The translations under genes and the position numbers were made by a program. Below the pieces are notes generated by a model, which was not told the DNA's origin, searched no databases, and saw nothing but the letters and a program-made list of their open reading frames with translations. From Planctomycetaceae bacterium (GTDB lineage: Bacteria > Planctomycetota > Phycisphaerae > Phycisphaerales > SM1A02), in assembly GCA_947490615.1 (NCBI GenBank), contig CANLHK010000001.1:1-64000 (forward strand): 64,000 nt of DNA. The letters run 5' to 3'. Positions 2,434 through 36,373 of this stretch are shown here, one piece after another (within the stretch, counting starts at the first letter, position 1; each line of letters begins with the position of its first letter).

Positions 2434-5013
2434 TTAGCTCCAATTCGCCAGCAACATCGCGAGATCCTGTCCGTCGGTGGTGCCGTCGTTGTTGAAGTCG
2501 GTGGCTCCCGCAAGGCCCCAGTTCGAGAGAAGCAAGGCCAAATCCGAACCATCCACCACGCCGTCGCCGTTGGCATCACCAGGTTTCGCCATGCCGACCT
2601 GAGCGGGCACGATGAGCGTGATCTCTCGGAAGCAGCACGGGTGGAAAGTCTCTGAGTGCAGTCCGATGATCAGCACGATCGGCGAGCCTGGTGGCAGCGC
2701 CGTGCTGATGGTGATCGGTCCGACTGCGACAGAGGAGTAGAGTGGAAGCGTCGCGATGTTGATGAGCGTCGGGTTGACCGTCGCGGTGTAGCCAGGCGCC
2801 ACCGCGAGCGAGATCCACTCACCAGCAAAGACTGGAGAGTCCGACAGGTTCATCAGATTCATGTTGAAGGTGAACGCACCAACACCTGGAAGATCCGTCA
2901 CCACCACATCGGTGTCCATGCAGGAGCACTCGGGCAGTTCGATGCAGATCTCTTCGGTGCAGCAGGCATCCTTGTAACTCGCAGCCAGCGTGGCCGTGAA
3001 GCAGAAGGTCGAGCCTGGGAGAGCGTTGTTGATCGGGATGTTGATCACCATCGTTCCCCCAGAAGCCAGTGGAGGATTGATCACGATCACATTGTTGGGT
3101 GCGAACGCAGGATCGCTGAGGATGAGCAGGTTCGCCGCTGAAGGCGAGTTGTTCACGATCTCAAGAGTCCAGAGGAAACTCATCGTGCCATCGGCGTTGG
3201 GCACGCAATCAATGTCGAGGGTGTTGAACTCGCAAGGATCCGTGACGCCGTAGCACGTGATGTCGAGCGAACCCTGCATGGTCTTTATGCCAGTCATGTT
3301 CACGCCAGGACCCAAGAGCGTGTCGAGTTGGCCTGGGTTGCCCTCAACAATCGGAATGCCCGAGATGCCGTAGTAGCTGCCGACCAGTGGATGGCCGAAG
3401 AAGTCGCCAGTCATCCAAGCCTGTGGGCCGTTGGTGCCGTTCACGAAGTCGATACCACCAGCTGAGTTCTGAAAATCGGTTCCTTGTCCCTGCGATCCGA
3501 TGTCGTAGCGAACCGAAGTCCACCCTGCCGCGGCCGCATCAAAGCAGGCACGCCACGCGCGACTGTTGTGCGCCGATGGAGAAGTTGGATCCTGCATCGA
3601 ACGCTCGGCCAAGAGCATGCAGCACTGGTCATCGAAGCTGATGTCGACGATCGGGCTGTTGATGTTTGGATACGGATGACCAGGTGCGTACGGAATGCTG
3701 AGCTCGAGTCGCGAGCTGCCTGCGATGAACGCGCCGTTGGCGTCGATCTGCACCGAGTGCACCGTCTGCGCGCTGCCGTAGGACTCCCACACCGAGTAGT
3801 ACACGCGGTCACCAGCGACCTTCACGGCGTAGACCCCGCGGCCATCGCCGGGGAAGCCAGCAGGTTCGGTCGATACTCCACCTGGATTTGGTCCCTCGGC
3901 GATCGCGTCGCCGTTGCCAGCTGCCGCCTCCGCCTCAACGGTGCCAGTCTCATGGTCGAAGGTGCTGATCGCGCCCGTACCCATCTTGATGGAGTAGATG
4001 CGTCCATCTTCAATGTTGGTCGCGAACAGACACTCGCGGGTGCAATCGAAGTCAAGATTGCCCAGTCCGAGCGCAGCACCAGCTCCTGGTGCCTGCGGAA
4101 GTGTGCGGAAGAGGGTGGGAACCCCCGTGGCGCCATCGATGCGATAGATCACGCCGCGACCATCGCCCGCGGTCGACACACCGAGCGTTCCCAAGACATC
4201 GAAGGAATACGCCACCGTGTGGGACACGAACGCGTTGCCTTGGCCGTCAAAGGTGACACCGAAGATGCTGCCGAGTGTCGCGAGATCCCACTGTGGGTGC
4301 GCGTAGATCGGCGGACTCCAGAGGGCTGCGGAGGAGGTGAGCGGCGCGAGGCTCTGGTCACCAAGACCGACAAAGCGCAGCACACCGATGTTGCCCGCGA
4401 TCGCGTCTTGCGTTCCGAAAGTGACGGCGCCGACCTGTCCTGGCGGGAACGGTGCGGAGAGATTGTCCACGAGTGGCGGACGCGTTCCGCAGCACACGGT
4501 GCAGTCGGGCGGCGTGAGCAATCCGCCGTCGCACGGTGTGCCAACGGCGTTGATGCGCACCTCACCAATCGGTGGGGTTCCGCTGAGTCGCCCCGCGACC
4601 TGAATCATGTAGCGCTCGCCGCAGCGAACTTCACAGCTCACTTCCGATTGCTTGCCGCAGTTGCCGCCTGCATCGTCGTTGCAACAAAGTGGATGAACAT
4701 CTCCGGGGCAGGCGCAGCCAACCGCGGCGGGATAGATCGCCACACCGGTATCAAGACTCGTGAGTCCGCAGGTGCTAATCGTCACCATGCCATTCACATT
4801 GCTGGTCCAACAGAACCAGAAGTCGGAGTTGAACGGTGCCGCTGGATTTGAGCACTGGAGGATGCCAGGACCATCGAGCACGCCGCCCGAGAGATCGAAA
4901 GGAACAAGGACCGAACCGCTGATTGGTGTCGGAACAGCGCAATCCGTCGTGGCCAACGATGGTGCAGCCAAGGCAAGCATCGCGGCAAGTGAGGTGAGTA
5001 TCTGAGACTTCAT
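2434..5013 (-). CDS. Secreted protein with C-terminal dockerin-like repeats
   Basis: An 859-residue exported protein of unknown function. It has a signal peptide (MKSQILTSLAAMLALAAPSLA), then a Cys-rich pre-peptidase-like beta domain (FWFCWTSNVNGMVTIST), a long propeller-like middle region, and two C-terminal calcium-loop motifs (GDANGDGVVDGSDLALLLSN and DFNNDGTTDGQDLAMLLANW) of the dockerin-like type frequent at the ends of Phycisphaerae secreted proteins. The start was chosen because GGAG lies 6 bases before this ATG and the signal peptide begins there; an adjacent in-frame ATG at 5016 is possible. The propeller-like reading is inference from repetitive hydrophobic and Gly-rich text. Confidence 0.9.
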   Translation of the reverse strand: MKSQILTSLAAMLALAAPSLATTDCAVPTPISGSVLVPFDLSGGVLDGPGILQCSNPAAPFNSDFWFCWTSNVNGMVTISTCGLTSLDTGVAIYPAAVGCACPGDVHPLCCNDDAGGNCGKQSEVSCEVRCGERYMIQVAGRLSGTPPIGEVRINAVGTPCDGGLLTPPDCTVCCGTRPPLVDNLSAPFPPGQVGAVTFGTQDAIAGNIGVLRFVGLGDQSLAPLTSSAALWSPPIYAHPQWDLATLGSIFGVTFDGQGNAFVSHTVAYSFDVLGTLGVSTAGDGRGVIYRIDGATGVPTLFRTLPQAPGAGAALGLGNLDFDCTRECLFATNIEDGRIYSIKMGTGAISTFDHETGTVEAEAAAGNGDAIAEGPNPGGVSTEPAGFPGDGRGVYAVKVAGDRVYYSVWESYGSAQTVHSVQIDANGAFIAGSSRLELSIPYAPGHPYPNINSPIVDISFDDQCCMLLAERSMQDPTSPSAHNSRAWRACFDAAAAGWTSVRYDIGSQGQGTDFQNSAGGIDFVNGTNGPQAWMTGDFFGHPLVGSYYGISGIPIVEGNPGQLDTLLGPGVNMTGIKTMQGSLDITCYGVTDPCEFNTLDIDCVPNADGTMSFLWTLEIVNNSPSAANLLILSDPAFAPNNVIVINPPLASGGTMVINIPINNALPGSTFCFTATLAASYKDACCTEEICIELPECSCMDTDVVVTDLPGVGAFTFNMNLMNLSDSPVFAGEWISLAVAPGYTATVNPTLINIATLPLYSSVAVGPITISTALPPGSPIVLIIGLHSETFHPCCFREITLIVPAQVGMAKPGDANGDGVVDGSDLALLLSNWGLAGATDFNNDGTTDGQDLAMLLANWS

Positions 5014-5173
5014 CATGTGCTCCAGGTAGAGGCAATTCGGAGATCGGCGCGTGGCCGTGCTCGTGCATGGGGCCACGCCCGTGGCGTGGTCCGTCAGCAC
5101 CTTCCTCGAACGGCGAGCAAATCTCTCAGCACGATGACGCGAAATCGGCAAGAGCGGGAGAATGCCGCCTCGC

Positions 5174-5389: not shown

Positions 5390-8335
5390 GTGTCGCCCGC
5401 CGTCGCCCTTCACCTTGCTCTCGCTCTTGGCGCGCCGCCCATCGACTTTGCGCTTGAGATCGCGCCGATTCTCGCAGCCAACTGCCTGCGCTGCCATGGT
5501 GCGCAGAAGCAGCGCAGCGGCTACCGACTCGATGTGCGCTCGATCGCGTTCCTCGGTGGCGAGGCCTCGGCTCCCAACATTCTGCCAGGCGACGCGGCGT
5601 CGAGCTCGCTGATCGAATTCGTGTCAAGCAGCGACCCCGACACGCGCATGCCGCCCGATGGCGACGGACTTTCGCAAGCGCAGATCGCGCTCCTCCGACG
5701 CTGGGTCGACGAAGGCGCGGTCTGGCCTGAGTCGGCGAGTGTCCGCGTAGCCAATCCGCTGGACTGGTGGAGCCTCAAGCCCATCGTCAAGCCTGAAATC
5801 CCCGTGACTGCGCCCAATCCGATTGACGCGTTTCTTCGCGCGCGGCTTACGCAGGACGCCCTCACCATGGCGCCGCAAGCGTCGGACCGCACGCTCTATC
5901 GCCGCCTGTCCTTTGACCTCACGGGCTTGCCGCCGACGCCTGAAGAACTCGACGCCTACGCCGCCGACACCGATCCAAACAAGTACGAGAAACTGGTGGA
6001 CCGTCTTCTCGCGTCACCGCGCTACGGCGAGCGTTTCGCACGGCACTGGCTCGATGTCGTGCACTACGCCGACAGTCATGGCTACGACAAGGACAAGCCC
6101 CGCGAACACGCCTGGCCTTACCGCGACTATGTGATTCGCGCGCTCAATGTGGACAAGCCGTTCGCGCGGTTCGTGCAAGAGCAGCTCGCGGGCGATGCGC
6201 TCTTTCCCAACACGCGTGATGGCATGGAAGCGCTCGGGTTCATCGCAGCAGGACCGTGGGACCTCATCAGCCACGAAGAAGTGAGCGAAGAGAAGATCGA
6301 CGGCAAGTTCGCGCGACACTTCGACCGCGACGACATGGTGGGCAACGCGATCGGTACTTTCGCGAGCGTCACCGTGCAGTGTGCGCAGTGCCACGATCAC
6401 AAGTTTGATCCCGTCACGCAGGAAGATTACTACGCGTTGCAAGCGGTCTTCGCTGCGATCGATCGCACGGAGCGGCGCTTTGATCTCGACGCGACTGTCG
6501 CGTCACAGCGCGCGAGTCTCGAAGGCGAACGCGCGCGCTTGCAGACTGAGCGCACCGCTCTCGACGCTGCGCTGACCGAGGCGGGAGGCGCGGAATTCGC
6601 GGCCCTCGAGCAAGAAATCGCTGCGAGCACGCGCGTTGGACCTGCTCCCGAGTTTGGATTCCACAGCGAGATCACGCTCAACGCCACGACCAGCACCTGG
6701 GTGGCCGTCGATCTCGGGCACTCCCGCGCCTTTGACCGCGTGGTGCTCGCGCCGTGCAGCGACGACTTCAACGGGATCGGTGATGGCTTCGGCTTTCCCG
6801 AAGCGTTCACCATCGAAGTCGCGGACAACGCCGAGTTCGCGCACGGCGTCGTTGAGGTTGCTCACGGTTCTTCCGCCTTGCTTGGAACTCCGCGCACGAC
6901 GCCCGTCGTACTCCACACGCCCAATGCGATGGCGCGTTTCGTGCGCGTGACAGCAACGCATCTTGCAGCACGCCGCGGCGATTACATCTTCGCGCTCGCC
7001 GAATTGCAGGTGTTTGACGCGGCAGGCCGCAACATCGCAGCAGGCGCGCCCGTCGAAAGCCTGAGCAGTATTGAGATGCCGCCGCGCTGGCGAAAGAGCA
7101 ATCTCACGGATGGTGTGTACCCAGCGTTGAAGAGCACTCCGACACGCGCGGGCGAATTGGGCGCGCAACGCCAAGCGCTGCGCAAGCGCCTTGAGTCGGA
7201 CGGCACCGCTGCGCGACGCACCGAACTCGAAGCCGAACTCCAACGCGTCGCTGCGGCGTTCGACAGCCTGCCTGCGCAGAGCGTGGTCTACGCGGGCGCC
7301 GTGCACCACGGCTCGGGTGCGTTTACGGGCACAGGCGGCAACGGCGGGAAACCCCGTGAAATCCGCGTGCTCGCGCGGGGACAGGTCACCAGCCCTGGTG
7401 CCATCGCGCACGCTGGTGCGCTCTCGGCGCTCGAGGCAATGCTGCCGTCACGCTTCGAGCTCGCTCCCGACGCCGACGAGTCACAGCGCCGCGTCGCGCT
7501 CGCGCAGTGGTTGACCGATCCGCGCAATCCGCTGGTCTGGCGATCGATCGTGAACCGCGTCTGGTACTACCACTTCGGACGCGGCCTCGTCGACACGCCC
7601 AACGACTTTGGCCGCATGGGAGCAACGCCAACCCATCCCGAACTCCTCGACTGGCTCGCGGCGACCTTCCGCGATGATCTCGATGGAAGACTCAAATCGC
7701 TCCACCGCCTCATTCTCACCAGCGCTGCGTATCGGCAACGCTCCGACACGACCAACACCGCCGCGGAGTCGATCGACCAGAGCAACACCCTGCTTTGGCG
7801 CGCCAATCCGCGCAAGCTTGAGGCCGAGGCGGTGCGCGACGCGGTGTTGGCCACGAGTGGCGCACTCGATCTGACTCTGGGAGGAAGCGGCTATCGCGAC
7901 TTCGTGATCGAGCAACCCGAACACTCGCCCCACTACCGCTACGACCTCGCTGATCCCAACGATCCCGCGACCTTTCGTCGGTCGATCTATCGCTTCATCG
8001 TGCGCTCGCAGATGCAACCGTTCATGACCACGCTCGATTGCGCCGATCCCTCGCAGCGTGTCGACAAGCGCAACCAGAGTGTGAGTCCCAACCAAGCGCT
8101 CGCGTACCTCAACAACGGCTTCATGCTCGCGCAATCCCAGCGCTTTGCGCAGCGCGTGCGGCAAGAGGTAGGCGAGGCCACCGACGCGCAAGTCGACCGC
8201 GCGATGCGACTCGCGCTTGGCCGCAGCGCCAGCGCCGACGAACGCGCGCGGCTCGTCGGCTACACGAATCAACACGGCCTTGAAAACACCTGCCGCGTGA
8301 TCCTCAACCTCAACGAGTTCTCCTTCGTCGACTGA
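5390..8335 (+). CDS. Planctomycete cytochrome-type protein, PSCyt1-DUF1549-DUF1553
   Basis: A 981-residue protein with the typical planctomycete order: an N-terminal PSCyt1 haem motif (Cys32-x-x-Cys35-His36 in NCLRCHG) after a short hydrophobic leader, a DUF1549/PSCyt2 domain (LPPTPEELDAY ... RHWLDVVHYADSHGYD), a CAQCHDHKFDP motif (a second CxxCH, about 330), a discoidin-like insertion at about 420-560, and DUF1553/PSD1 (NRVWYYHFGRGLVDTPNDFG). The biochemical role of this family is not established. The start is GTG. It sits 6 bases before the DUF1501 gene, so the two are co-transcribed, as in other planctomycetes. Confidence 0.95.
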   Translation: MSPAVALHLALALGAPPIDFALEIAPILAANCLRCHGAQKQRSGYRLDVRSIAFLGGEASAPNILPGDAASSSLIEFVSSSDPDTRMPPDGDGLSQAQIALLRRWVDEGAVWPESASVRVANPLDWWSLKPIVKPEIPVTAPNPIDAFLRARLTQDALTMAPQASDRTLYRRLSFDLTGLPPTPEELDAYAADTDPNKYEKLVDRLLASPRYGERFARHWLDVVHYADSHGYDKDKPREHAWPYRDYVIRALNVDKPFARFVQEQLAGDALFPNTRDGMEALGFIAAGPWDLISHEEVSEEKIDGKFARHFDRDDMVGNAIGTFASVTVQCAQCHDHKFDPVTQEDYYALQAVFAAIDRTERRFDLDATVASQRASLEGERARLQTERTALDAALTEAGGAEFAALEQEIAASTRVGPAPEFGFHSEITLNATTSTWVAVDLGHSRAFDRVVLAPCSDDFNGIGDGFGFPEAFTIEVADNAEFAHGVVEVAHGSSALLGTPRTTPVVLHTPNAMARFVRVTATHLAARRGDYIFALAELQVFDAAGRNIAAGAPVESLSSIEMPPRWRKSNLTDGVYPALKSTPTRAGELGAQRQALRKRLESDGTAARRTELEAELQRVAAAFDSLPAQSVVYAGAVHHGSGAFTGTGGNGGKPREIRVLARGQVTSPGAIAHAGALSALEAMLPSRFELAPDADESQRRVALAQWLTDPRNPLVWRSIVNRVWYYHFGRGLVDTPNDFGRMGATPTHPELLDWLAATFRDDLDGRLKSLHRLILTSAAYRQRSDTTNTAAESIDQSNTLLWRANPRKLEAEAVRDAVLATSGALDLTLGGSGYRDFVIEQPEHSPHYRYDLADPNDPATFRRSIYRFIVRSQMQPFMTTLDCADPSQRVDKRNQSVSPNQALAYLNNGFMLAQSQRFAQRVRQEVGEATDAQVDRAMRLALGRSASADERARLVGYTNQHGLENTCRVILNLNEFSFVD

Positions 8336-24071: not shown

Positions 24072-24371
24072 ACCATTGCCTTGGTGAACGGACACTTGGG
24101 CCGTCTCCAAACCCCTGCTCGCCGACGGAATCCCTCCGAATCGCCGCTGCAGCCTGCGGTTGGCTTGCAACTTCGGGCGTACAGAGGATGATGCGGACGG
24201 TGCGATTGTGGCGAGCGGTTTGGATCGCCCGTCGCAGTGGAGTGTGCTTGAACGGCGATGCCGCGCGGGCGGACTCTGATGCGCGCAACGAACCGAGAAG
24301 AGATCGCCGGCGTGCCGGCGGATCGTGCTACAGGCAGCCGCGACTGAGTGCCAACGGAACGAACCTTGCAG
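24072..24371. other. Intergenic region before the secreted operon
   Basis: About 300 bases without a convincing gene. A short GC hairpin (24305-24320) lies about 50 bases before the start of the next gene. No clear -10/-35 pair was found. Confidence 0.6.
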
Positions 24372-27164
24372 ATGAAGACCTCCACCAGTGCATCGATCCT
24401 TCTTGGCCTCTGTGGGCTGACGCTCCTGACGGCGATGCCTGTGCAGCTCGGCTTGCGCGATGGCGTGCACCAGAAGTTCAATACGGAGCTTGACGCGGAA
24501 CTCGACGCGCTTGGATTGCAGAGCTCGGCGGCGTACTCCGACACCGATCTTGTTGCTGGCGCAGCGATGCGCTGGAGCTTTCCATCGCTTGCGGCTGCGC
24601 AACTTCCTGTCGGTGAGCCGCTCACCTTCGTCCTTCCTGGTGGAAGCACCCTCGACATTCCGCTCGTTGAGCGCGTGGTCATGGATAGCGAGTCGATCCA
24701 ATTCACCTTTGCCAATCCATTGACCGGTGATGCCGCCGAAATCACCGTGCGCCACGGTCTTGTCCGCGGACTCCTCCACACCACGATCAAAGGCGCGCGC
24801 GTCGAGTGGTCGCTGGCAACAGGCACCGACGATCACGGCTTGACTGGTGAGTACTACAGCCCTCCGCACGGTGTTGACGGCGCGCACGAGTCCATCGGTT
24901 CGAGCGCCAACGACGATGCTGGCCATGGCGACGGCGGCATCGCTGGAGCTTGCCAGGACAGCGGGCAACTCATCGATGTGCTCCTCGTCTACACGCCCTC
25001 GTTTGCAGCGCAGTTTGGCGGCGACGCGGTGTTGATTCAAGCGGCTCTTTCGGGCGACATCGGCTACGCGAATTCTGCGTTGGCCAACTCGAACGCCGTG
25101 CCGCGCTTTCGCATCGCGGGTTTCGCACAGCTCACCAACAACAGCACGGGATCACTCACGAACGATCTCATCGCGCTGATCGATCCACTCGATGGTTGGA
25201 ACGATCAAGTCGGTGTCCTGCGCAACAACACCGCTGCAGACCTTGTCGCGCTCTACTCCGATGCAGCGACTTTCGGCAGCGTCGCGGTGATCGGCGTCAA
25301 TACTCCTGATGGCTCTGATGCCTTCAGCGCCATCGGTCGAAGTGCAAGTCCCGATCCGAGCGTCTCGCTCGCGCGCGGACTTGGTGCGAATCTCGGCTGC
25401 TGCGCGCAGGCTGACCTCGTTCCACCGTGTGACGGCTTCTACTCCTACTCACAGGCGTGGACCTACTTCGTGGGATCGCAGCTCTACCAGACCGTCATGG
25501 CCAGTGGCAGCGGTTCGGTCGTTCCCGTCTATTCGAATCCGCTCGTTTCGTGGCTTGGAGCTCCTGCGGGCACGCCGACGGCCAACAACGCGCGCACCGC
25601 GAGTCTCACCGCGGGGATCGTCGCCAACTACCGCTGCTCCAATCTCGACATCACCGACTGTGACGGCGATGGCGTGGAAGACGCTGTGGCGATCATCAAT
25701 GGCCTTGTGCCTGATTGCAACGCCACGGGAATTCCCGACAGTTGCGACATCGCGCTGGGGATCAGCCTCGACATCAATCTCGACACGATCCCTGATGAGT
25801 GTCCGCTGAATGACATCGAGTTCAGTGCGAGCGGTGTGACTTCGCTCGACACGCTTGGCTCAGCAGTCGGCATGTCGTCGGCTGCGGGCGATCCCGTCGC
25901 GCTTGCCGTCATCGGCGCGCCTGGAATTGATCTCGGTGCCTCGAACGCTGGTGGCGCGTACCTCTTCACGGTGCAAGCGGGCGCGGTCGTGCCGATTGCG
26001 TTCCTCCAAGCAGGTGATCGACTCACCAACGCGTTCTTCGGTCGCGGCGCGACGGTCTACAAGCGCGCCGCAAGCGCAGCCAACCCCGTCATCGCGGCGC
26101 GCAACTTCGCGCTCGTCGGCGCCTACCGATGGACCGAGACTGCCGCCGTCGGCACCTTCCCCTCCAAGGGAACGGTCTATCTCTTCGCGCAATCGGGCGC
26201 GATCTGGACGCAGCTCTGGCGCTACGCACCGCCGCCAACCAACACTTACCAAGCCCGCGAGAACGCGCTCTTTGGCTACTCGGTGGCGATGGGCCGCAAT
26301 CCGCGCGAAGGCAATGATCAGATCATCGTCGGCGCGCCTGGACACACTGGTGGCCGCGGCAAGGTCTACTTCCTTCGCAACTACATCCCGAGTGGACAGA
26401 CCGTTGAGAAGGGCGGCCTGCTTTCGATGCGCGCGCCTTCGGTGCCTGTCGATGGCGACAACTACGGCGCTGCGGTCGCGCTTGAACCATTCCTTCCCGT
26501 AGCCAACACTTCGCGCGTGCTCGCCGTGATCGGCGCACCTGGACGCAATGTCGGCAAGGGCGCTGCCTATGTCTTTGATCGCGGGCCTGGTTCCGCCAAC
26601 GGCATCGGTGCGTTCCCGCCCACGGGCATCACGCTCAATCCTCCTGGCGTCAACGCGCTCTCGGAAGGCGATCGCTACGGAAGCGCGGTGGCTGTGAGTG
26701 GAAACCTCCTCGCCATCGGTGCACCAGGCGAGTCCGCTGGCCAAGGCATCGTGCATTTCTGGGAGCGCTCGACCAACACGATCGCCGCGATCCCATCGAC
26801 CTACACCTACCGCGGGAACTTCCGCGCGCCAGACGCTGTCGACGGCGACGCGTTTGGCTCGAGCATCAGCATCGCACCAGCAGTCACGGGTGGTGGATTC
26901 ACCGTGGTCGTCGGTGCACCAAAGGCTGACATCCCGACACCAGGCGGATTGCGCAACAGCGCAGGCAAGGTCTATGTCCTGCACAAGACCGTCGGCGCCA
27001 GCGGAGCGGATCTGCTCTCGACGCGCGCGATGTTCAATCCAGCGACGGGTGACGAGTTCGGCTACTCCGCAGCGAGTTCGACGGGCTTCTCACTCATCGG
27101 TGCGCCCTTCAGCGACATCACAGGACTCAACTCGGGCAAGGCCAGATTGCTGACGGTGCCATGA
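24372..27164 (+). CDS. Secreted metallopeptidase-like protein with lost zinc motif and FG-GAP repeats
   Basis: A 930-residue exported protein. After a signal peptide (MKTSTSASILLGLCGLTLLT) and a propeptide-like domain comes a reprolysin-like fold (LIDVLLVYTPSFAAQFGG ... LRNNTAADLVALYSD ... ANNARTASLTAGIVANYR). Where HExxHxxGxxH belongs, the protein reads ARGLGANLGC (residues 334-343), so both zinc histidines and the catalytic Glu are gone. A linker of DCDGDGVEDA/DCNATGIPDSCDI type follows, then about six FG-GAP-like units (VIGAPGID, IIVGAPGH, VIGAPGRN, AIGAPGES, VVGAPKAD, LIGAPFSD) building a beta-propeller. It overlaps the next gene's frame by ATGA. A binding or adhesion role is inferred. 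Confidence 0.88.
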   Translation: MKTSTSASILLGLCGLTLLTAMPVQLGLRDGVHQKFNTELDAELDALGLQSSAAYSDTDLVAGAAMRWSFPSLAAAQLPVGEPLTFVLPGGSTLDIPLVERVVMDSESIQFTFANPLTGDAAEITVRHGLVRGLLHTTIKGARVEWSLATGTDDHGLTGEYYSPPHGVDGAHESIGSSANDDAGHGDGGIAGACQDSGQLIDVLLVYTPSFAAQFGGDAVLIQAALSGDIGYANSALANSNAVPRFRIAGFAQLTNNSTGSLTNDLIALIDPLDGWNDQVGVLRNNTAADLVALYSDAATFGSVAVIGVNTPDGSDAFSAIGRSASPDPSVSLARGLGANLGCCAQADLVPPCDGFYSYSQAWTYFVGSQLYQTVMASGSGSVVPVYSNPLVSWLGAPAGTPTANNARTASLTAGIVANYRCSNLDITDCDGDGVEDAVAIINGLVPDCNATGIPDSCDIALGISLDINLDTIPDECPLNDIEFSASGVTSLDTLGSAVGMSSAAGDPVALAVIGAPGIDLGASNAGGAYLFTVQAGAVVPIAFLQAGDRLTNAFFGRGATVYKRAASAANPVIAARNFALVGAYRWTETAAVGTFPSKGTVYLFAQSGAIWTQLWRYAPPPTNTYQARENALFGYSVAMGRNPREGNDQIIVGAPGHTGGRGKVYFLRNYIPSGQTVEKGGLLSMRAPSVPVDGDNYGAAVALEPFLPVANTSRVLAVIGAPGRNVGKGAAYVFDRGPGSANGIGAFPPTGITLNPPGVNALSEGDRYGSAVAVSGNLLAIGAPGESAGQGIVHFWERSTNTIAAIPSTYTYRGNFRAPDAVDGDAFGSSISIAPAVTGGGFTVVVGAPKADIPTPGGLRNSAGKVYVLHKTVGASGADLLSTRAMFNPATGDEFGYSAASSTGFSLIGAPFSDITGLNSGKARLLTVP

Positions 27165-27238
27165 TGTCCGCCACGAGTTTCGCCACGACCTTCGACCCGC
27201 ACGCCGCTCCATCGACTGCCTCGCTCCACCGACTCTCC

Positions 27239-30223
27239 ATGCGCTCCCTCCGCCCTCTTGCGATCTTCACCCTCCTCCTCGCAACGGCGTTGTTTGCGTT
27301 TGGTGCGCGCGCAGCGGCGCAGGTCGCCTGCACCACCGCGACCAACACCTGCTTCACGCCGAACCTCATTGCGCCAGGCTGCAACAACCCCGACTGCTGC
27401 GGACTCGTTTGCACTGTCGAACCAACCTGCTGCGATGTTGCGTGGGACGATGTCTGCGTTGCGATCGCCACCAAGTATTGCTCGAGTTGCGGCGCGGTCC
27501 CCGAGAGCTGCTTCACGCCGCACCCCTCGCCTTCCTGCAACAACGGTGTCGTCTGCACCGCCGTTTGCGCCGTGCTTGGTCTCGAGTACTGCTGCACGAT
27601 TCAGTGGGATGTGAACTGCGTCCACGAGGCAATCAAGCTCACCGACCAGTGTGGCGAGCCCGCCGCGGGCTCCTGCAATGGTGTGCACGAGAACCCAAAC
27701 TGCAACGACACCGCCTGCTGCACGCAGATCTGCAACATCGATCCCGCCTGCTGCACGGTCGCGTGGGATGAGCCTTGTGTCGCGTGGGCCGAGCGCTTCT
27801 GCTTCAGCTGCGGCAATCCGCGCGCTGGCAACTGCTGCCACCAACACGAGACTCCGTTTTGTAGCGATCGCATCTGCTGCGAAACCGTCTGCGCTGCTGA
27901 TCAGTTCTGCTGCGAGGTTCGCTGGGACACGCTGTGCGGACAGATCGCCACTGATGTCTGCGGCCCCTGCGAGCGCGTCTGCGGTTACAGCGATCCCGCC
28001 AATCCTGCCGCGCGCGCCTGCCGCACCGTGCACATCCAGCCAGGATGCTCCGACGCCGTCTGCTGCGACTCGGTCTGCTACATCGACAACTTCTGCTGCG
28101 CCGTCGGCTGGGACTTCACCTGCGTGGAAGCCGCGCGCGCGACCTGCGCGATGACGCAGGATCCCGTTGTCAACGGAGTTTGCTCCGCGGCCAATGGCAG
28201 CTGCTTCTTCCCGCACAAGACCGCGGGCTGCTCCGATGATGCGTGCTGCGCGATCATCTGCACCAGCGATCCACTCTGCTGCGATACAGCCGTTGGAAAC
28301 TGGGATGAGACTTGCGCCGAGCGCGCCGTGATTGCCTGTAACGGCTGCGGCGACATCAGCGCTGGAAGCTGCCTCTATCCGCACGGCTCACCCGCCTGCC
28401 TTGATCGCAACTGCTGTAACGCCGTGTGCGATCTCGATCCGACCTGCTGCCTCACGCAGTGGGACATCTTCTGCGTGAACAGCGCCACGACGGTCTGCGA
28501 CGGACTCACCATCGATTGCGGCGATCCTCGCACCCGCCCCTGCTCGCTCGCGAGCTATCTGCCTGCCTGCGAAGACGAAAACTGCTGCACCAAGATCTGC
28601 GCGATCGATCCAACCTGCTGCGCGCGCGCCTGGGATGAAACCTGCGCCGCCAACAGTTCGGTCATCTGTGTGAGCCCCAACGGTTGCCCAGGTACGGGTT
28701 CCGCTCTCGCGGTCCACGGCAGCAACGGTTGCTCGGATCCTGAGTGCTGCGCTGCAGTCTGCGCGGTTGATCCGATCTGCTGCTCGTTCGGTTGGAACGA
28801 GCGCTGCGTGACCATCGCCAAGGGAATCTGCTGGAGCTTCGGCGATTGCCCTGGCGAAGAGCCCTGCACCGAAATCCACCTGACGCCAGGCTGCTCCGAT
28901 GCCACCTGTTGCTCAGTGGTCTGCGAAGTCGACCCGCTCTGCTGCGATGTGCAGTGGAACTCGGTCTGCGTCAACGCCGCGCGCAACCTCTGCGTGCCTC
29001 TGGCCACCTGGTCCTGCCCGTGCGCAGGAAGCTGCTTCGAGGAGCACTCAGAAACCGCTGGCTGCGACGACGAAGTCTGCTGCTCAGGCGTCTGCAATGT
29101 GGATCCACTCTGCTGCACGCAGAGTTGGGATGCAGGCTGCGCGACCATCGCGCGCGTCGTCTGCTGTGGTACGCCAGGTTGCGGCGACAGCTGCGCGGGC
29201 GAGTGTCTGCGTCCGCACACCACACCCAACTGCAACGATCCAGCGTGCTGCGAAGCGGTCTGCCGCTTTGAGCCCTTCTGCTGCGAAGTCCGCTGGGATT
29301 CCTCCTGCGTCCTCGCGGCGCGCGAGACCTGCTTCGGTGGCTGCGGTCAACCCGCCAGCGGCAACTGCTTCAACGCCCACGAGGTCCCAGGCTGCGCGAT
29401 TGGCGACTGCTGTGAGCAAGTCTGCGGAACGCCTGAGTTCGAATACTGCTGCATCGTTTCGTGGGACGAAGACTGCGCCGTCGAGGCCCGCAAGGCCTGC
29501 GCGGACTTCCTTCCCAAGTGCGGCGACTACGGCAGCGACGGATGCAACATCGCGCACGCCAAGCCTTCCTGCTCCGATGCGCAATGCTGCGAGGCCGTCT
29601 GCATCATCGACGACTTCTGCTGCACCGCCGAGTGGGATGCCAGCTGCGTGCAGCTGATCTACACAACGGTCGACTGTGAGCGCTACCAGTACAAGTGCGG
29701 CGACGCCTGCGCTGAAAACTGCTGCGAACCACACCCGACTCCGTGGTGCAATGATCAGACCTGCTGCGACGCGGTCTGCCTTGTCGATGTCTTCTGCTGC
29801 ACCAGCGCGTGGGATGCTTTCTGCGCCTCGGTCGCGCGCATCAATCCTGCTTGCGAGAAGGTCTGCCCTGATCCACTTTGCGGCACACCCGAAGCGGGCA
29901 ACTGCTGCTTCCCCCACGACAGCGCCAACTGCAACGACCAAGACTGCTGTGACCTCGTCTGCGAGATCGACGCGACTTGCTGCGAGACGGTGTGGGATGC
30001 CATCTGCTCGTCGATCGCTGGCCCTATTTGCGGGCAATGCAATGGCGGCATCTCCTGCGGACATGTCGATGCGGGCAGTTGCTGCAACGAACACGCCGAG
30101 CCTTACTGCAACGACGCCAAGTGCTGCTCGATCGTCTGCTCGTTTGACGAGACCTGCTGTAACGCAGCGTGGGACACCACCTGTGTGAAACTCGCGCAAG
30201 CGTTCTGCGGTTGCGGCGGCTGA
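27239..30223 (+). CDS. Secreted protein of 17 cysteine-rich CC/WD repeats
   Basis: A 994-residue exported protein. A signal peptide (MRSLRPLAIFTLLLATALFA) is followed almost entirely by 17 tandem units of about 50-60 residues. Each has CxxxxHxxPxC, then (S/N)DxxCC, xxVCxxDPxCC, xxxWDxxCV, xxA and a closing Cys, about eight cysteines per unit. Cysteine pairing or metal binding must be extensive. Unit 2 has lost one CC. An in-frame ATG at 27161 would overlap the preceding stop (ATGA) and give 26 extra residues; I chose the internal ATG because the signal peptide begins there. The repeat is not a family I can name. Co-transcription with the dead-peptidase gene is likely. Confidence 0.9.
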   Translation: MRSLRPLAIFTLLLATALFAFGARAAAQVACTTATNTCFTPNLIAPGCNNPDCCGLVCTVEPTCCDVAWDDVCVAIATKYCSSCGAVPESCFTPHPSPSCNNGVVCTAVCAVLGLEYCCTIQWDVNCVHEAIKLTDQCGEPAAGSCNGVHENPNCNDTACCTQICNIDPACCTVAWDEPCVAWAERFCFSCGNPRAGNCCHQHETPFCSDRICCETVCAADQFCCEVRWDTLCGQIATDVCGPCERVCGYSDPANPAARACRTVHIQPGCSDAVCCDSVCYIDNFCCAVGWDFTCVEAARATCAMTQDPVVNGVCSAANGSCFFPHKTAGCSDDACCAIICTSDPLCCDTAVGNWDETCAERAVIACNGCGDISAGSCLYPHGSPACLDRNCCNAVCDLDPTCCLTQWDIFCVNSATTVCDGLTIDCGDPRTRPCSLASYLPACEDENCCTKICAIDPTCCARAWDETCAANSSVICVSPNGCPGTGSALAVHGSNGCSDPECCAAVCAVDPICCSFGWNERCVTIAKGICWSFGDCPGEEPCTEIHLTPGCSDATCCSVVCEVDPLCCDVQWNSVCVNAARNLCVPLATWSCPCAGSCFEEHSETAGCDDEVCCSGVCNVDPLCCTQSWDAGCATIARVVCCGTPGCGDSCAGECLRPHTTPNCNDPACCEAVCRFEPFCCEVRWDSSCVLAARETCFGGCGQPASGNCFNAHEVPGCAIGDCCEQVCGTPEFEYCCIVSWDEDCAVEARKACADFLPKCGDYGSDGCNIAHAKPSCSDAQCCEAVCIIDDFCCTAEWDASCVQLIYTTVDCERYQYKCGDACAENCCEPHPTPWCNDQTCCDAVCLVDVFCCTSAWDAFCASVARINPACEKVCPDPLCGTPEAGNCCFPHDSANCNDQDCCDLVCEIDATCCETVWDAICSSIAGPICGQCNGGISCGHVDAGSCCNEHAEPYCNDAKCCSIVCSFDETCCNAAWDTTCVKLAQAFCGCGG

Positions 30224-30246: not shown

Positions 30247-31467
30247 TCAGGTAGACGATCGATCGATGCGCGCGATGAGCGCCTTCGTGCGCTCACCGCG
30301 GCGGAACGCGAAGATCACAGCGTCGCCATCGGAGCGTGCTCTCAGCGCTTTGGTCAGCGCGTCCGCGTCAGCGGCCTGTCCGCGCACCCGCACGCTGCGG
30401 GCGCGGAGCCCATGACGCGTGAGCACCTCGGCGATGACTTGGGCTTTCGCAGCACACTCCTCGACCACGCGGAAACTCTCGAACCACGGTGCTGCCAAGG
30501 GCGAGGGTGAAGTCACCAGCCCCACGCCGTACACGAGCTCACGCGCTTCGCCTCCGACAGCCGTCGTGAGCAGCTGCGCGCGCTCAAGCGCTGCACAGGG
30601 CTCGCTGATCCAGTCGTCGACGCGGACAGCGGCCGCGATGCCGATGCGATCCGCGCGCGCGTCGTCGGGAACTCCAACGAGGGTCGCGGGCGTTGCATCG
30701 TTCGACAAGACAGTCGCCCGCGTACAACCCGCGGCCCGCGCAAACGCGCCGCTCCACGCCACCGCCTGCACCAAGCGCGCGGTGTGACCGTCACGCGTCT
30801 CGATGAACTCCCACTCCAACGGGATCGAGCGAAACTCCCGACGATCAACGCCAGGAGAAAACTTGATCGCCCCCGCGCGGGTGATGGTCAGAGCGCGTTC
30901 CATCCACGCGCGACCTGGAGTGTGATCGTCGACCTTCCAACTCCGCGATCCCGCGGCTTCATCGCGACGAGCAGGATCCGCGTGGAGCACTGCACCCTCG
31001 AACGCGAGACTCTCGGCGTCAGCAACCTGCACCGCGCACCGCGCGTTCTGCTCAGCCATCCACGCCCGCCGCGGATCAAGATCGATCGCCGTCACGCGCA
31101 GACCGCACTTCGAAAGCGCCATCGCATCGCCGCCGATCCCGCAGCAGAGATCAAGAATCTGTCCTCCCTCGCCGAGCACTTCCCGCATCCGCAGAGCTTT
31201 CCACGCAGCTACGAGTTCGCCCGATGCCTGCTCGACCCCCGCGACATCGCACCACAGCTCTGCCGCGCGGGACGAGGGAAACTTCAGAGCAGCCTTCCGC
31301 CGCGCTTGCGCCAGCTCCAACGCCGCCGAGACCAGATCCGCGTCGGCAGACCGTCGAAGCCGCGCAATCGCGGAAGCATCCGTCGGATGCACAGCCTCAG
31401 CCGCCGCCTGCACTTCGGGCAGCGCGATCAGCTGCGTCCAGACGGAAAGTGCACGCCAGTCGGGCAT
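30247..31467 (-). CDS. Class I SAM methyltransferase, THUMP-like family
   Basis: A 406-residue soluble protein. The central fold has motif I DLCCGIGGDAMAL, an acidic AIDLDP after beta-2, and ADPARR where N6/N2-methylases have DPP(Y/R), followed by a C-terminal domain ending in RVRGQAADADALTKALRA and FAFRRGERTKALIAR. This order is that of the class I methyltransferases with a C-terminal THUMP-like region. The substrate, probably RNA, is not known. It converges with the Cys-repeat gene and diverges from the lectin gene. Confidence 0.85.
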   Translation of the reverse strand: MPDWRALSVWTQLIALPEVQAAAEAVHPTDASAIARLRRSADADLVSAALELAQARRKAALKFPSSRAAELWCDVAGVEQASGELVAAWKALRMREVLGEGGQILDLCCGIGGDAMALSKCGLRVTAIDLDPRRAWMAEQNARCAVQVADAESLAFEGAVLHADPARRDEAAGSRSWKVDDHTPGRAWMERALTITRAGAIKFSPGVDRREFRSIPLEWEFIETRDGHTARLVQAVAWSGAFARAAGCTRATVLSNDATPATLVGVPDDARADRIGIAAAVRVDDWISEPCAALERAQLLTTAVGGEARELVYGVGLVTSPSPLAAPWFESFRVVEECAAKAQVIAEVLTRHGLRARSVRVRGQAADADALTKALRARSDGDAVIFAFRRGERTKALIARIDRSST

Positions 31468-31742
31468 CTTGGAACGCTATCCGCATCCGCGAGCCAAGGG
31501 TGCAGAGTTTCGTGGATACTCCAACCATGTTGACGCGATCGGCCGCCTCACGAGTCGCTCTGCTCTTAGGCGAAGAACTCTTCGACGCGGTGCCCGTCCC
31601 CCGCCGCGCGAAGTTCCCGCGCGCCGCACTTCTCCTTCTCTTTTGCGCCACGGCGCTCCATGCGACCCGCGTGACAGGCTCTCTCGCGACCGAGGCGCCT
31701 GTTGCGTCGAGGTGGACGAACTCCAACAGCAAGGTGCAAGGG

Positions 31743-32570
31743 ATGACGCACAGCAAGAAGATCGGAGCGGCGGCCACCATCGCCGCGCTGTCCATTGGCT
31801 CACACGCGCTCGCGCAGGACGCGGTCCAATGGCGCGTCGAGGATGGAGGGAACGGGCATTGGTATGCCCTGCTCGTTTCAGGGCCGATCGACTGGCCGAC
31901 TGCTCGAACGACCGCGATCAGTTTGGGGGGCGATCTCGCAACGCTTACGACGCAAGCCGAGCACTTCTTCGCTCTGGCCTTGGTTGAGCAGGTACCAGGT
32001 GGCGGCGAGTCCCCGCTTGCGCTCTACGGACCGTGGCTCGGCGGGTACCAACTCGCGGATTCCGAGGAGCCGGCAGGTGGTTGGACATGGGTTTCCGGTG
32101 AGCCGTGGAGCTACGCACCATGGTTGGTCGCGCAGCCGGACAACGGTGGAGGGAGCTGTGAACCTGAGAAGTGCTTGCATCTCATTGGTCACTGGGCAGG
32201 CCCGAAAGCGTGGGGAATGTGGAACGATCTTCCGGCAGAGGGCTGTGTCGATCAGGTCGTGAGTTTCGTTGTCGAATACTCCGCCGACTGCAACGCCGAC
32301 GGCATCGTCGACTTTGGGCAGATCCTCAACGGCGAGCTTGACGACGCCAACGGCAACAACATCCCCGACTGCTGCGAGAGCAGCACGAGCTGCCACTGCG
32401 TCGGCGATGTGATTCCCGACGGCTCCGTCGACGCCGTCGACCTCGCTGCTGTCCTGAACCAATGGGGCACCGTTGGCGACAAGCAGTTCAATGCCGATGT
32501 GAACTCCGACGGTCTCGTCGATGCGAGTGATCTCTCCATTCTCCTCAACAGTTGGGGAGCGTGCCCGTAG
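31743..32570 (+). CDS. Secreted C-type lectin-like protein with dockerin-like tail
   Basis: A 275-residue exported protein. The signal peptide (MTHSKKIGAAATIAALSIGS) is followed by a C-type lectin-like domain (about 30-180): WPTARTTAISLGGDLATLTT, WLGGYQLADSEEPAGGWTWV, PWLVAQPDNGGG and WNDLPAEGC. Then a DCNADGIVDFGQI linker and two calcium-loop motifs (PDGSVDAVDLAAVLNQWG and DVNSDGLVDASDLSILLNSW). Carbohydrate binding at the surface is the likely job. The start was chosen at the signal peptide; the frame is open far upstream into the methyltransferase gene. Its last bases overlap a sigma-factor gene. Confidence 0.88.
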   Translation: MTHSKKIGAAATIAALSIGSHALAQDAVQWRVEDGGNGHWYALLVSGPIDWPTARTTAISLGGDLATLTTQAEHFFALALVEQVPGGGESPLALYGPWLGGYQLADSEEPAGGWTWVSGEPWSYAPWLVAQPDNGGGSCEPEKCLHLIGHWAGPKAWGMWNDLPAEGCVDQVVSFVVEYSADCNADGIVDFGQILNGELDDANGNNIPDCCESSTSCHCVGDVIPDGSVDAVDLAAVLNQWGTVGDKQFNADVNSDGLVDASDLSILLNSWGACP

Positions 32571-35384: not shown

Positions 35385-35589
35385 CGAAGTCCTCAACCGT
35401 TCCTGTCAGAGCAAGTCAGTCCATGCCCGGACCGAAACGGAACGCTGCGAAACGCACCGATTGGCGCGCAAGGGGCGCACTATACGATTTTCCGCAGCGC
35501 AGCCAAAACCGAAAGTTGGGTGAATCTGCAGGAGAATGGTGTTCGAGCGGCGGCGGCAGCGGTCATACTCGTGCAGGCGCTCCCTCGCG

Positions 35590-35650
35590 CCGCTGTCCCT
35601 CTCATTGTCCCTGTCCCTTTCCCTGTTCGTTCCCTCCAACCCTCTCCCTG
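35590..35650. repeat. Pyrimidine-rich simple sequence upstream of PEP-CTERM-like gene
   Basis: A run of tccct/gtccct-like units almost without purines lies just before the 35663 start. It has no coding sense and could form a leader structure or slip in length. Confidence 0.55.
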
Positions 35651-35662
35651 GGGTCTCCCATC

Positions 35663-36373
35663 ATGACTTCGTATCTCCGCGCCGACGTTCTCTTGTCCGT
35701 CGCCCTCTCTGTGAGCGCGCTCACGCTCGCCCCGGTCGCACTCGCTGGTCCCGACTGGGATGAGGGCGCCCTCGACGCTGGCTCGACGCTCGGCTCGGCG
35801 CAGGCCATCAGCGTCAACGGCGGCATCAACACCATCACGGGTAAGCTCGCTGGCTCCGCCTTCATGGTCGGTGACTATCAGGATTGCTTCCTCGTCTACA
35901 TCGACTCGCCGCAGACCTTCTCGATCAGCACGAGTCCTGGTGCTGGGGGCGCCTCGTCGCTGGATCCGATGTTGTTTCTGTTCCGCGTCGAAGCGGGCAA
36001 CTTCACGCGCGCGATCATGGCCAACAACGATTTCGCGGGCGGAAGCAGCGCCGCAGGCTTGCGCGCTTCAACCAACGACGGCAGCGGCGTGACGGTCTCG
36101 ACGGCGGGTCTCTACCTCATCGCCATCAGTGGATTTGCCTCGCAGCCGATCGATGCCACGGGGGCGGCACTGTTCAACCAGGCGTTCCTGCAACCGGGTG
36201 TGATCGCTGGTCCTGGGCCCGGATCAGGTGACCTCAACCTCTTTGCTTGGAACGCCGAAGGTTCGAGCGGAACCTATGTTCTCACGCTCGAAGGCGTGTC
36301 GGGCGTTCCCGCGCCAGGCGCGTTGTCGTTGCTCGCGCTCGGCGGACTCATCGCCCGCAAGCGTCGCCGCTAA
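35663..36373 (+). CDS. Exported protein with PEP-CTERM-like sorting signal
   Basis: A 236-residue exported protein: signal peptide (LLSVALSVSALTLAPVALA), a pre-peptidase-like beta domain (DYQDCFLVYIDSPQTFSIST ... DPMLFLFRVEAGNFT), and a C-terminal sorting tail with VPAPGALSLLALGGLIA then RKRRR. The tail is motif, hydrophobic helix, then basic cluster, as in PEP-CTERM proteins handled by exosortases, although the motif reads VPAPGAL. No exosortase is in the window. It converges with the kinase gene 6 bases away. Confidence 0.88.
   Translation: MTSYLRADVLLSVALSVSALTLAPVALAGPDWDEGALDAGSTLGSAQAISVNGGINTITGKLAGSAFMVGDYQDCFLVYIDSPQTFSISTSPGAGGASSLDPMLFLFRVEAGNFTRAIMANNDFAGGSSAAGLRASTNDGSGVTVSTAGLYLIAISGFASQPIDATGAALFNQAFLQPGVIAGPGPGSGDLNLFAWNAEGSSGTYVLTLEGVSGVPAPGALSLLALGGLIARKRRR

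Follow-up and report, generated by a model that had tools for sequence, protein, structure and literature searches.

Small disulfide-rich domains strung in tandem are best known from the extracellular proteins of animals. EGF, LDL-A, and Kazal domains form such arrays of beads in eukaryotes and also occur in a few copies in peptidases and lectins. Here, we describe a bacterial protein of the same architecture, encoded on the + strand at positions 27239-30223 of a 64,000-nucleotide stretch of a planctomycete genome (contig CANLHK010000001.1, positions 1 to 64,000; hereafter, the window). Its 994 residues hold 17 tandem cysteine-rich units, which we call the array. EGF, LDL-A, and Kazal domains differ from this unit in cysteine spacing, and the unit has no sequence or Foldseek match to them. 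The array gene belongs to something larger, a family of extracellular domains found in one planctomycete class, and a bacterial lineage appears to employ this independent disulfide-bead module as an all-purpose component of the proteins it secretes.

Two planctomycete systems offer a comparison. Cysteine-rich cell wall proteins with YTV domains are reported only in Planctomycetales (PMC8567305). As described there, these proteins resemble the array in being cysteine-rich, extracellular, and particular to a planctomycete lineage. The contig-mates of the window genome are titled Phycisphaerales/Phycisphaerae, a separation that rests on the description of the YTV proteins rather than on a YTV profile. 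By that account, YTV proteins are confined to one order; for planctomycetes of other orders, the array is a candidate surface structure. The second system is the "planctosome," a cohesin/dockerin peptidase complex proposed for CL500-3/Nemodlikiaceae, a freshwater family described from 22 Phycisphaerae metagenome-assembled genomes (PMC6461901). The window genome, with 7 cohesin and 66 dockerin matches, resembles this system in its cohesins, its many dockerins, and its M12B reprolysin-like peptidases; several unit proteins have dockerins, and some distant arrays have a region resembling a lamin-tail domain (LTD; by eye). Unlike planctosome components, the window array carries no dockerin or cohesin in Pfam searches. 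The strings "cystein" and "disulfide" are absent from the main text of PMC6461901. The window organism is probably a freshwater planctomycete, and we infer that its genome falls within CL500-3/Nemodlikiaceae.

The 17-unit array

The repeat is not a product of chance, since none of 500 shuffled copies of the array protein matches the unit profile and the protein is 54 to 78% identical to 12 orthologs from the same genus. The open frame spans 27161-30223, with the likely start at 27239; in the alignment with the 12 complete genus orthologs, the start column holds Met in 7 of the 13 sequences, the window's included. An earlier note on this DNA was right about the frame, its length, and its 17 units, but its figure of about 130 cysteines falls short of the 179 that we count. 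A Sec-type signal peptide was called by eye at residues 1 to 27 (27239-27319, + strand), and in 13 of 13 orthologous arrays a hydrophobic leader ending near AQ precedes unit 1 (judged by eye on the alignment rather than with SignalP).

The units are about 52 residues long, are spaced by 53 to 62 residues, and follow the consensus xCGxPxAGxCxxxHxxPxCxDxxCCxxVCxxDPxCCxxxWDxxCVxxAxxxC. We number the cysteines by profile column as C1, C8, C17, C22, C23, C27, C33, C34, C42, and C50. The WD that had been called invariant is so only in its Trp, present in 17 of 17 units; 15 units have WD, and units 9 and 10 have WN. Unit 2 has indeed lost a cysteine pair (C22 and C50), although this is not the sole loss, as unit 9 lacks C8. 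At non-Cys positions, units have on average 28% (maximum, 42%) in common, and Tandem Repeats Finder detects no DNA-level tandem repeat in the gene. The repeat is therefore old, as had been proposed, and the same two results rule out a recent expansion at the DNA level.

Sixteen genomes of the genus were sampled. The array is complete in 13 of them (window included), is cut by a contig end in one (L043), and was not located in two (G007 and G011). All 13 complete arrays have exactly 17 units, and the best match of every unit in the window array lies at the same position in 9 of the 12 orthologs; this holds for 16 of 17 units in two others and for 12 of 17 in the last. Of the 179 cysteines, 176 are the same in all 13 sequences, compared with 196 of the 788 other residues. 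This comparison was extended to L032 and nine distant arrays less than 46% identical to the window array, among which L047, L049, and L050 come from other genera of the window's family. The best alignment shift relative to the window is 0 for five 17-unit arrays, +1 for three 18-unit arrays, and +2 for two 19-unit arrays, which argues for an old 17-unit block with extra units in front. When the order of units is shuffled, 0 or 1 of 1,000 trials score as high as the real order in five arrays and 5 to 35 in four; for L192, 75 do so, and the position match is not clear. One further candidate array, L044, was rejected as a reprolysin-like protein with nine units.

The number of cysteines in the mature array is odd in all 13 genus sequences (179 in 12 of them and 181 in one), so at least one cysteine has no partner within the chain. 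A covalent dimer formed through this cysteine is one possibility. The distant array L155 has an even number, 182.

All units are encoded on the + strand. The first four lie at 27326-27481, 27482-27649 (unit 2, without the C22/C50 pair), 27647-27802 (unit 3, the query for the single-unit model described below), and 27806-27961 (unit 4). Units 5 to 9 follow at 27992-28147, 28175-28339 (unit 6, with an insert of three residues before the Trp), 28343-28498, 28514-28669, and 28676-28831 (unit 9, with WN and without C8). The three units modeled together are located at 28838-28993 (unit 10, with WN), 29009-29164 (unit 11), and 29177-29332 (unit 12), and the remaining five at 29339-29500, 29516-29677, 29693-29854, 29876-30031, and 30053-30208 (units 13 to 17).

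Predicted fold and cysteine pairing of the unit

The array matches no Pfam family at an E value of ≤1, and its one NCBIfam match (E value, 0.34) is not convincing. When 143 units were searched separately, 13 Pfam families appeared, none of them in more than two units (best E value, 0.019, for PLA2G12), along with one NCBIfam match at an E value of 9.9. Among PDB chains, phmmer finds none for the array protein at an E value of ≤10, and the best match of the unit profile (E value, 0.45) is a 17-residue stretch of an aldolase. Thus, the statement that no known pattern fits stands for Pfam, NCBIfam, and PDB sequences, where no characterized domain was matched. The CCxxxWDxxC motif resembles the CC..HD signature of phospholipase A2-like proteins; this identity was rejected, as PLA2G12 matched only 1 of the 143 units and there was no fold match. 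We found no description of the unit in the open-access literature searched.

AlphaFold2 gave confident models. Given 143 units, the single unit reached a mean predicted local distance difference test (pLDDT) score of 96.5 and a predicted template modeling (pTM) score of 0.79, with helices at 22-31, 34-37, and 42-51; the stretch of units 10 to 12 reached a pLDDT of 90.1, lower at a linker. A Foldseek search of the PDB returned nothing for the single unit at an E value of ≤10 and one match for the three units (E value, 8.5), and five matches in BFVD all had E values of 2.3 or worse. Searches with as few as 53 residues are weak, so the negative result is no proof of a new fold; the VIA-align comparisons had one chain and no chain to work on. 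On these models, the unit is most likely a three-helix extracellular domain, one that the libraries and papers searched do not describe.

Conserved residues are consistent with this prediction. Three columns hold Asp in 72%, 81%, and 95% of unit hits; in unit 3, they directly precede the first and third helices and lie two residues before the second, where the Asp is followed by Pro. The usual helix-cap position is just before the start of a helix, and these Asp residues would sit in the model as helix caps would. Trp is present in 100% of the profile hits and Ala before the last Cys in 96%, and the invariant Trp is probably buried.

To predict the disulfides, we scored all 945 pairings of the ten cysteines by how often a pair is half lost. 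The profile yielded 725 hits (717 unique), of which 706 remained after duplicates and gapped cores were dropped, and 686 had both flanks. These were placed in 254 greedy clusters, used instead of single-linkage clusters, which put 591 of the 686 units in one group. The pairing with the fewest half-lost pairs is C1-C23, C8-C17, C22-C50, C27-C34, and C33-C42, with 53 by clusters (next best, 55; median, 89) and 153 by units (next best, 169; median, 263). Four of its pairs are also seen lost together: C1 and C23 in 11 clusters (27 and 19 losses), C27 and C34 in 6 (7 and 6 losses), C22 and C50 in 6 (8 and 22 losses), and C8 and C17 in 3 (12 and 3 losses).

An optional sixth pair would link a Cys in column 9 to an extra Cys just after C50. 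The latter is present in 152 of 154 units with a column-9 Cys versus 121 of 517 without it, and by clusters in 46 of 48 versus 55 of 193; these counts cover units that have a Cys 6 to 11 residues behind C42 and whose key columns are aligned. In the window array, units 4, 15, 16, and 17 have this pair. With exceptions, then, a cysteine is gained or lost along with its partner, as expected of a disulfide-stapled domain. The sequence comparison favors five predicted disulfides per unit, by a narrow margin for two of them, plus the optional sixth. Together, this mostly pairwise turnover of cysteines and the confident compact model support the predicted fold and pairing, as well as the earlier view of the protein as disulfide built.

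Distribution of the unit among proteins and genomes

Secreted proteins of the window's lineage make wide use of the unit as a module. The window genome has 39 unit matches in 11 proteins. Of the 10 proteins besides the array, 8 have a dockerin match at an E value of ≤0.01 (3 over the Pfam cutoff), one has a reprolysin domain with five units, and one is a subtilase; a metzincin, five units, and a dockerin are fused in one protein. ADAM-type metzincins likewise have a reprolysin-like domain followed by Cys-rich C-terminal domains. The fused protein in L052 has this order, but its Cys-rich part consists of the array's unit and, unlike that of ADAMs, matches no disintegrin or ADAM Cys-rich family in Pfam.

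We collected 67 further unit proteins (nonredundant frames not touching a locus end, arrays of ≥15 units excluded). Their accompanying domains are dockerin (16 proteins), subtilase (10), galactose-binding-like (9), C-type lectin (5), DUF4215 (3), thrombospondin type 3 (3), peptidase M43 (2), and reprolysin (1). Proteins other than arrays mostly have one to nine units. By eye, several distant arrays have dockerin-type loops along with the LTD-like region before the units, and some have another domain after them; Pfam reports no LTD in the distant arrays and detects a dockerin, weakly, in just one of five. The unit constitutes an annotatable domain for more than 100 proteins, and none of the curated libraries searched matched it.

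Among near relatives, the unit occurs in 23 of 41 genomes, counting the window's, and all 23 belong to the same family as the window. In a sample of 392 genomes from the phylum, the 17-unit profile found it in 9, again all in this family. A broader profile, applied to 397 genomes sampled from the class, found it in 81; of these, 29 belong to the window's family and 52 to families f103 and f111 to f115, which lie outside the order; in this draw, no other family of the order has the unit. Scanning named genomes for an exact DNA pattern gave at least 119 stretches. Among the 80 listed, 71 bear planctomycete titles, seven are titled only as bacteria, one as Wenzhouxiangella, and one as a proteobacterium. 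The profile confirmed the unit in all 120 stretches from the pattern scans of named genomes and viral contigs; plasmid and phage records had no unit match.

Some of these occurrences stand apart. The contig titled Wenzhouxiangella has a 133-residue frame (L097, 2296-2694, - strand) that combines a leader and a single unit with an IPTL-CTERM sorting signal over the cutoff. This unit is the sole match in its genome, which may reflect transfer to a gammaproteobacterium or misbinning. The contig with the proteobacterial title (L167) is probably a misbinned planctomycete contig, being a lone match in its genome with a dockerin-like end by eye, where NCBIfam gave nothing. One IMG/VR contig (L214) has a unit in a 3,128-residue open frame; since exonuclease and HNH endonuclease matches lie close to it, this frame may encode a phage protein that carries the unit. 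In variant units (L054, L103, L115, L200, and L204), CxC replaces the first CC, roughly as CxDxxxxxCxCxxDxxCC; these CxC-type units are a distinct subfamily.

Proposed role of the array and its neighbors

In the window, frames read as purA and uppS are followed by a gene for a 938-residue protein (24348-27164, + strand) and then by the array. As the earlier note stated, the array follows a propeller protein: the FG-GAP repeats of this neighbor are clear, and it also has a reprolysin-like metzincin region whose match is weak but which is also present in the ortholog alignment. The metzincin/FG-GAP gene adjoins the array in all 13 other genus loci (12 complete plus the cut L043). Its zinc motif is degraded in the window. 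A motif of the HExxHxxGxxH type is kept in four orthologs (L032, L033, L041, and L043) and is replaced in the window, L034, L035, and L038, and differently in L031, L036, L037, L039, and L042; L040 is cut. Since the motif has been replaced in the window and eight orthologs in at least two ways, a peptidase appears to have turned into a pseudoenzyme beside the array, perhaps more than once. Around the nine distant arrays, purA and/or uppS lie near five (L047, L049, L050, L147, and L172), none of which has the 938-residue protein, and neither was found at the other four, where some loci are short.

We put at roughly 0.6 the probability that the unit is a stapled three-helix extracellular domain and that the array, acting with its neighbor, serves as a scaffold or adhesive strand of fixed length that resists proteases. 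The array protein would be secreted by Sec and oxidized outside the cytoplasm, where each unit would fold into a disulfide-stapled bead, and the 17 beads would form a protease-resistant strand of fixed length outside the cell, possibly at its surface. Single units on enzymes could serve as spacers or binding modules, analogous to EGF and LDL-A domains in animals and not members of them. The best candidate partner of the array would be its constant neighbor, the often dead metzincin with FG-GAP repeats.

Several results weigh against this proposal. The three-unit model has a pTM of only 0.62, too low to support a rigid rod, and neither Pfam nor NCBIfam recognizes an anchor, dockerin, or cohesin in the array, which bears on its retention at the surface. 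The favored pairing leaves unexplained that C1 is also lost with C50 (11 clusters) and C22 with C23 (5 clusters), and a pairing with C1-C50 and C22-C23 instead has only two more broken pairs by clusters. C8 is also lost with C27 (6 clusters) and C34 (5 clusters), C33-C42 is assigned by elimination because C42 is never lost, and four pairings tie under the coarser single-linkage clustering. Finally, the DsbB, VKOR, Thioredoxin_4, and DSBA profiles are unmatched at an E value of ≤0.001 in the window genome, which is 96.9% complete; the same profiles do match in control genomes. None of the 16 genus genomes has VKOR over the cutoff (G006 has one sub-cutoff match with an internal stop) or any DSBA match, versus 5 and 3 (two over the cutoff), respectively, of 9 genomes from other families of the order. 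DsbB and Thioredoxin_4 were searched in the window genome only, and Erv/ALR-type oxidases were not searched. Up to 89 disulfides per chain would have to form in a genome where the known oxidases were not found, which is odd for disulfide proteins.

The units could instead act as ligand-binding receptors in the manner of LDL receptor class A or scavenger receptor domains, with 17 different sites for glycans, proteins, or ions. The position-specific identities of the units fit such a role, as do the lectin and galactose-binding-like domains found in 5 and 9 of the 67 further unit proteins. Yet no conserved non-Cys surface motif is prominent in the units: their best-conserved residues are the Trp, Ala, Val, and helix-start Asp, and the His at column 12 reaches only 66%. 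We regard this role as possible but doubtful. A bolder version of our own proposal, combining a disulfide module evolved by a class of mostly uncultured planctomycetes, a new mini-fold, a 17-bead strand of fixed length, odd-cysteine dimers, and oxidation by a route other than DsbA/DsbB/VKOR, is in our judgment unlikely as a whole.

It is quite improbable that the array is a multiheaded protease inhibitor guarding the cell or its own secreted peptidases. Tandem domains of 50 to 60 residues and the fusion or adjacency of units to subtilases and metzincins would suit an inhibitor, but no inhibitor family rises above noise (WAP in 1 of 143 units; E value, 0.4), and units also occur in proteins with a Pfam dockerin and no peptidase. 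As for cysteines holding metal ions in thiolate clusters, like a metallothionein or zinc ribbon array, the very high Cys content and the unmatched disulfide-forming enzymes would agree with it, but we reject it as very improbable because the cysteines mostly come and go two at a time, a secretion leader is present, the model is confidently compact and helical, and neither the array nor the 143 units match a zinc finger or metal-binding profile in Pfam. The earlier interpretation, which offered a disulfide-built surface fiber or a metal-binding array, is thus partly supported; a surface fiber would fit these results.

Other genes in the window were also noted. Upstream lie a dockerin protein (2434-5151, - strand) and a planctomycete cytochrome protein of the PSCyt1/PSCyt2/PSD1 type (5390-8335, + strand). 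Downstream of the array, the gene at 31224-32570 has a dockerin and a sub-cutoff C-type lectin match, and 35423-36373 encodes a DVUA0089 family protein with a marginal, sub-cutoff PEP-CTERM signal.

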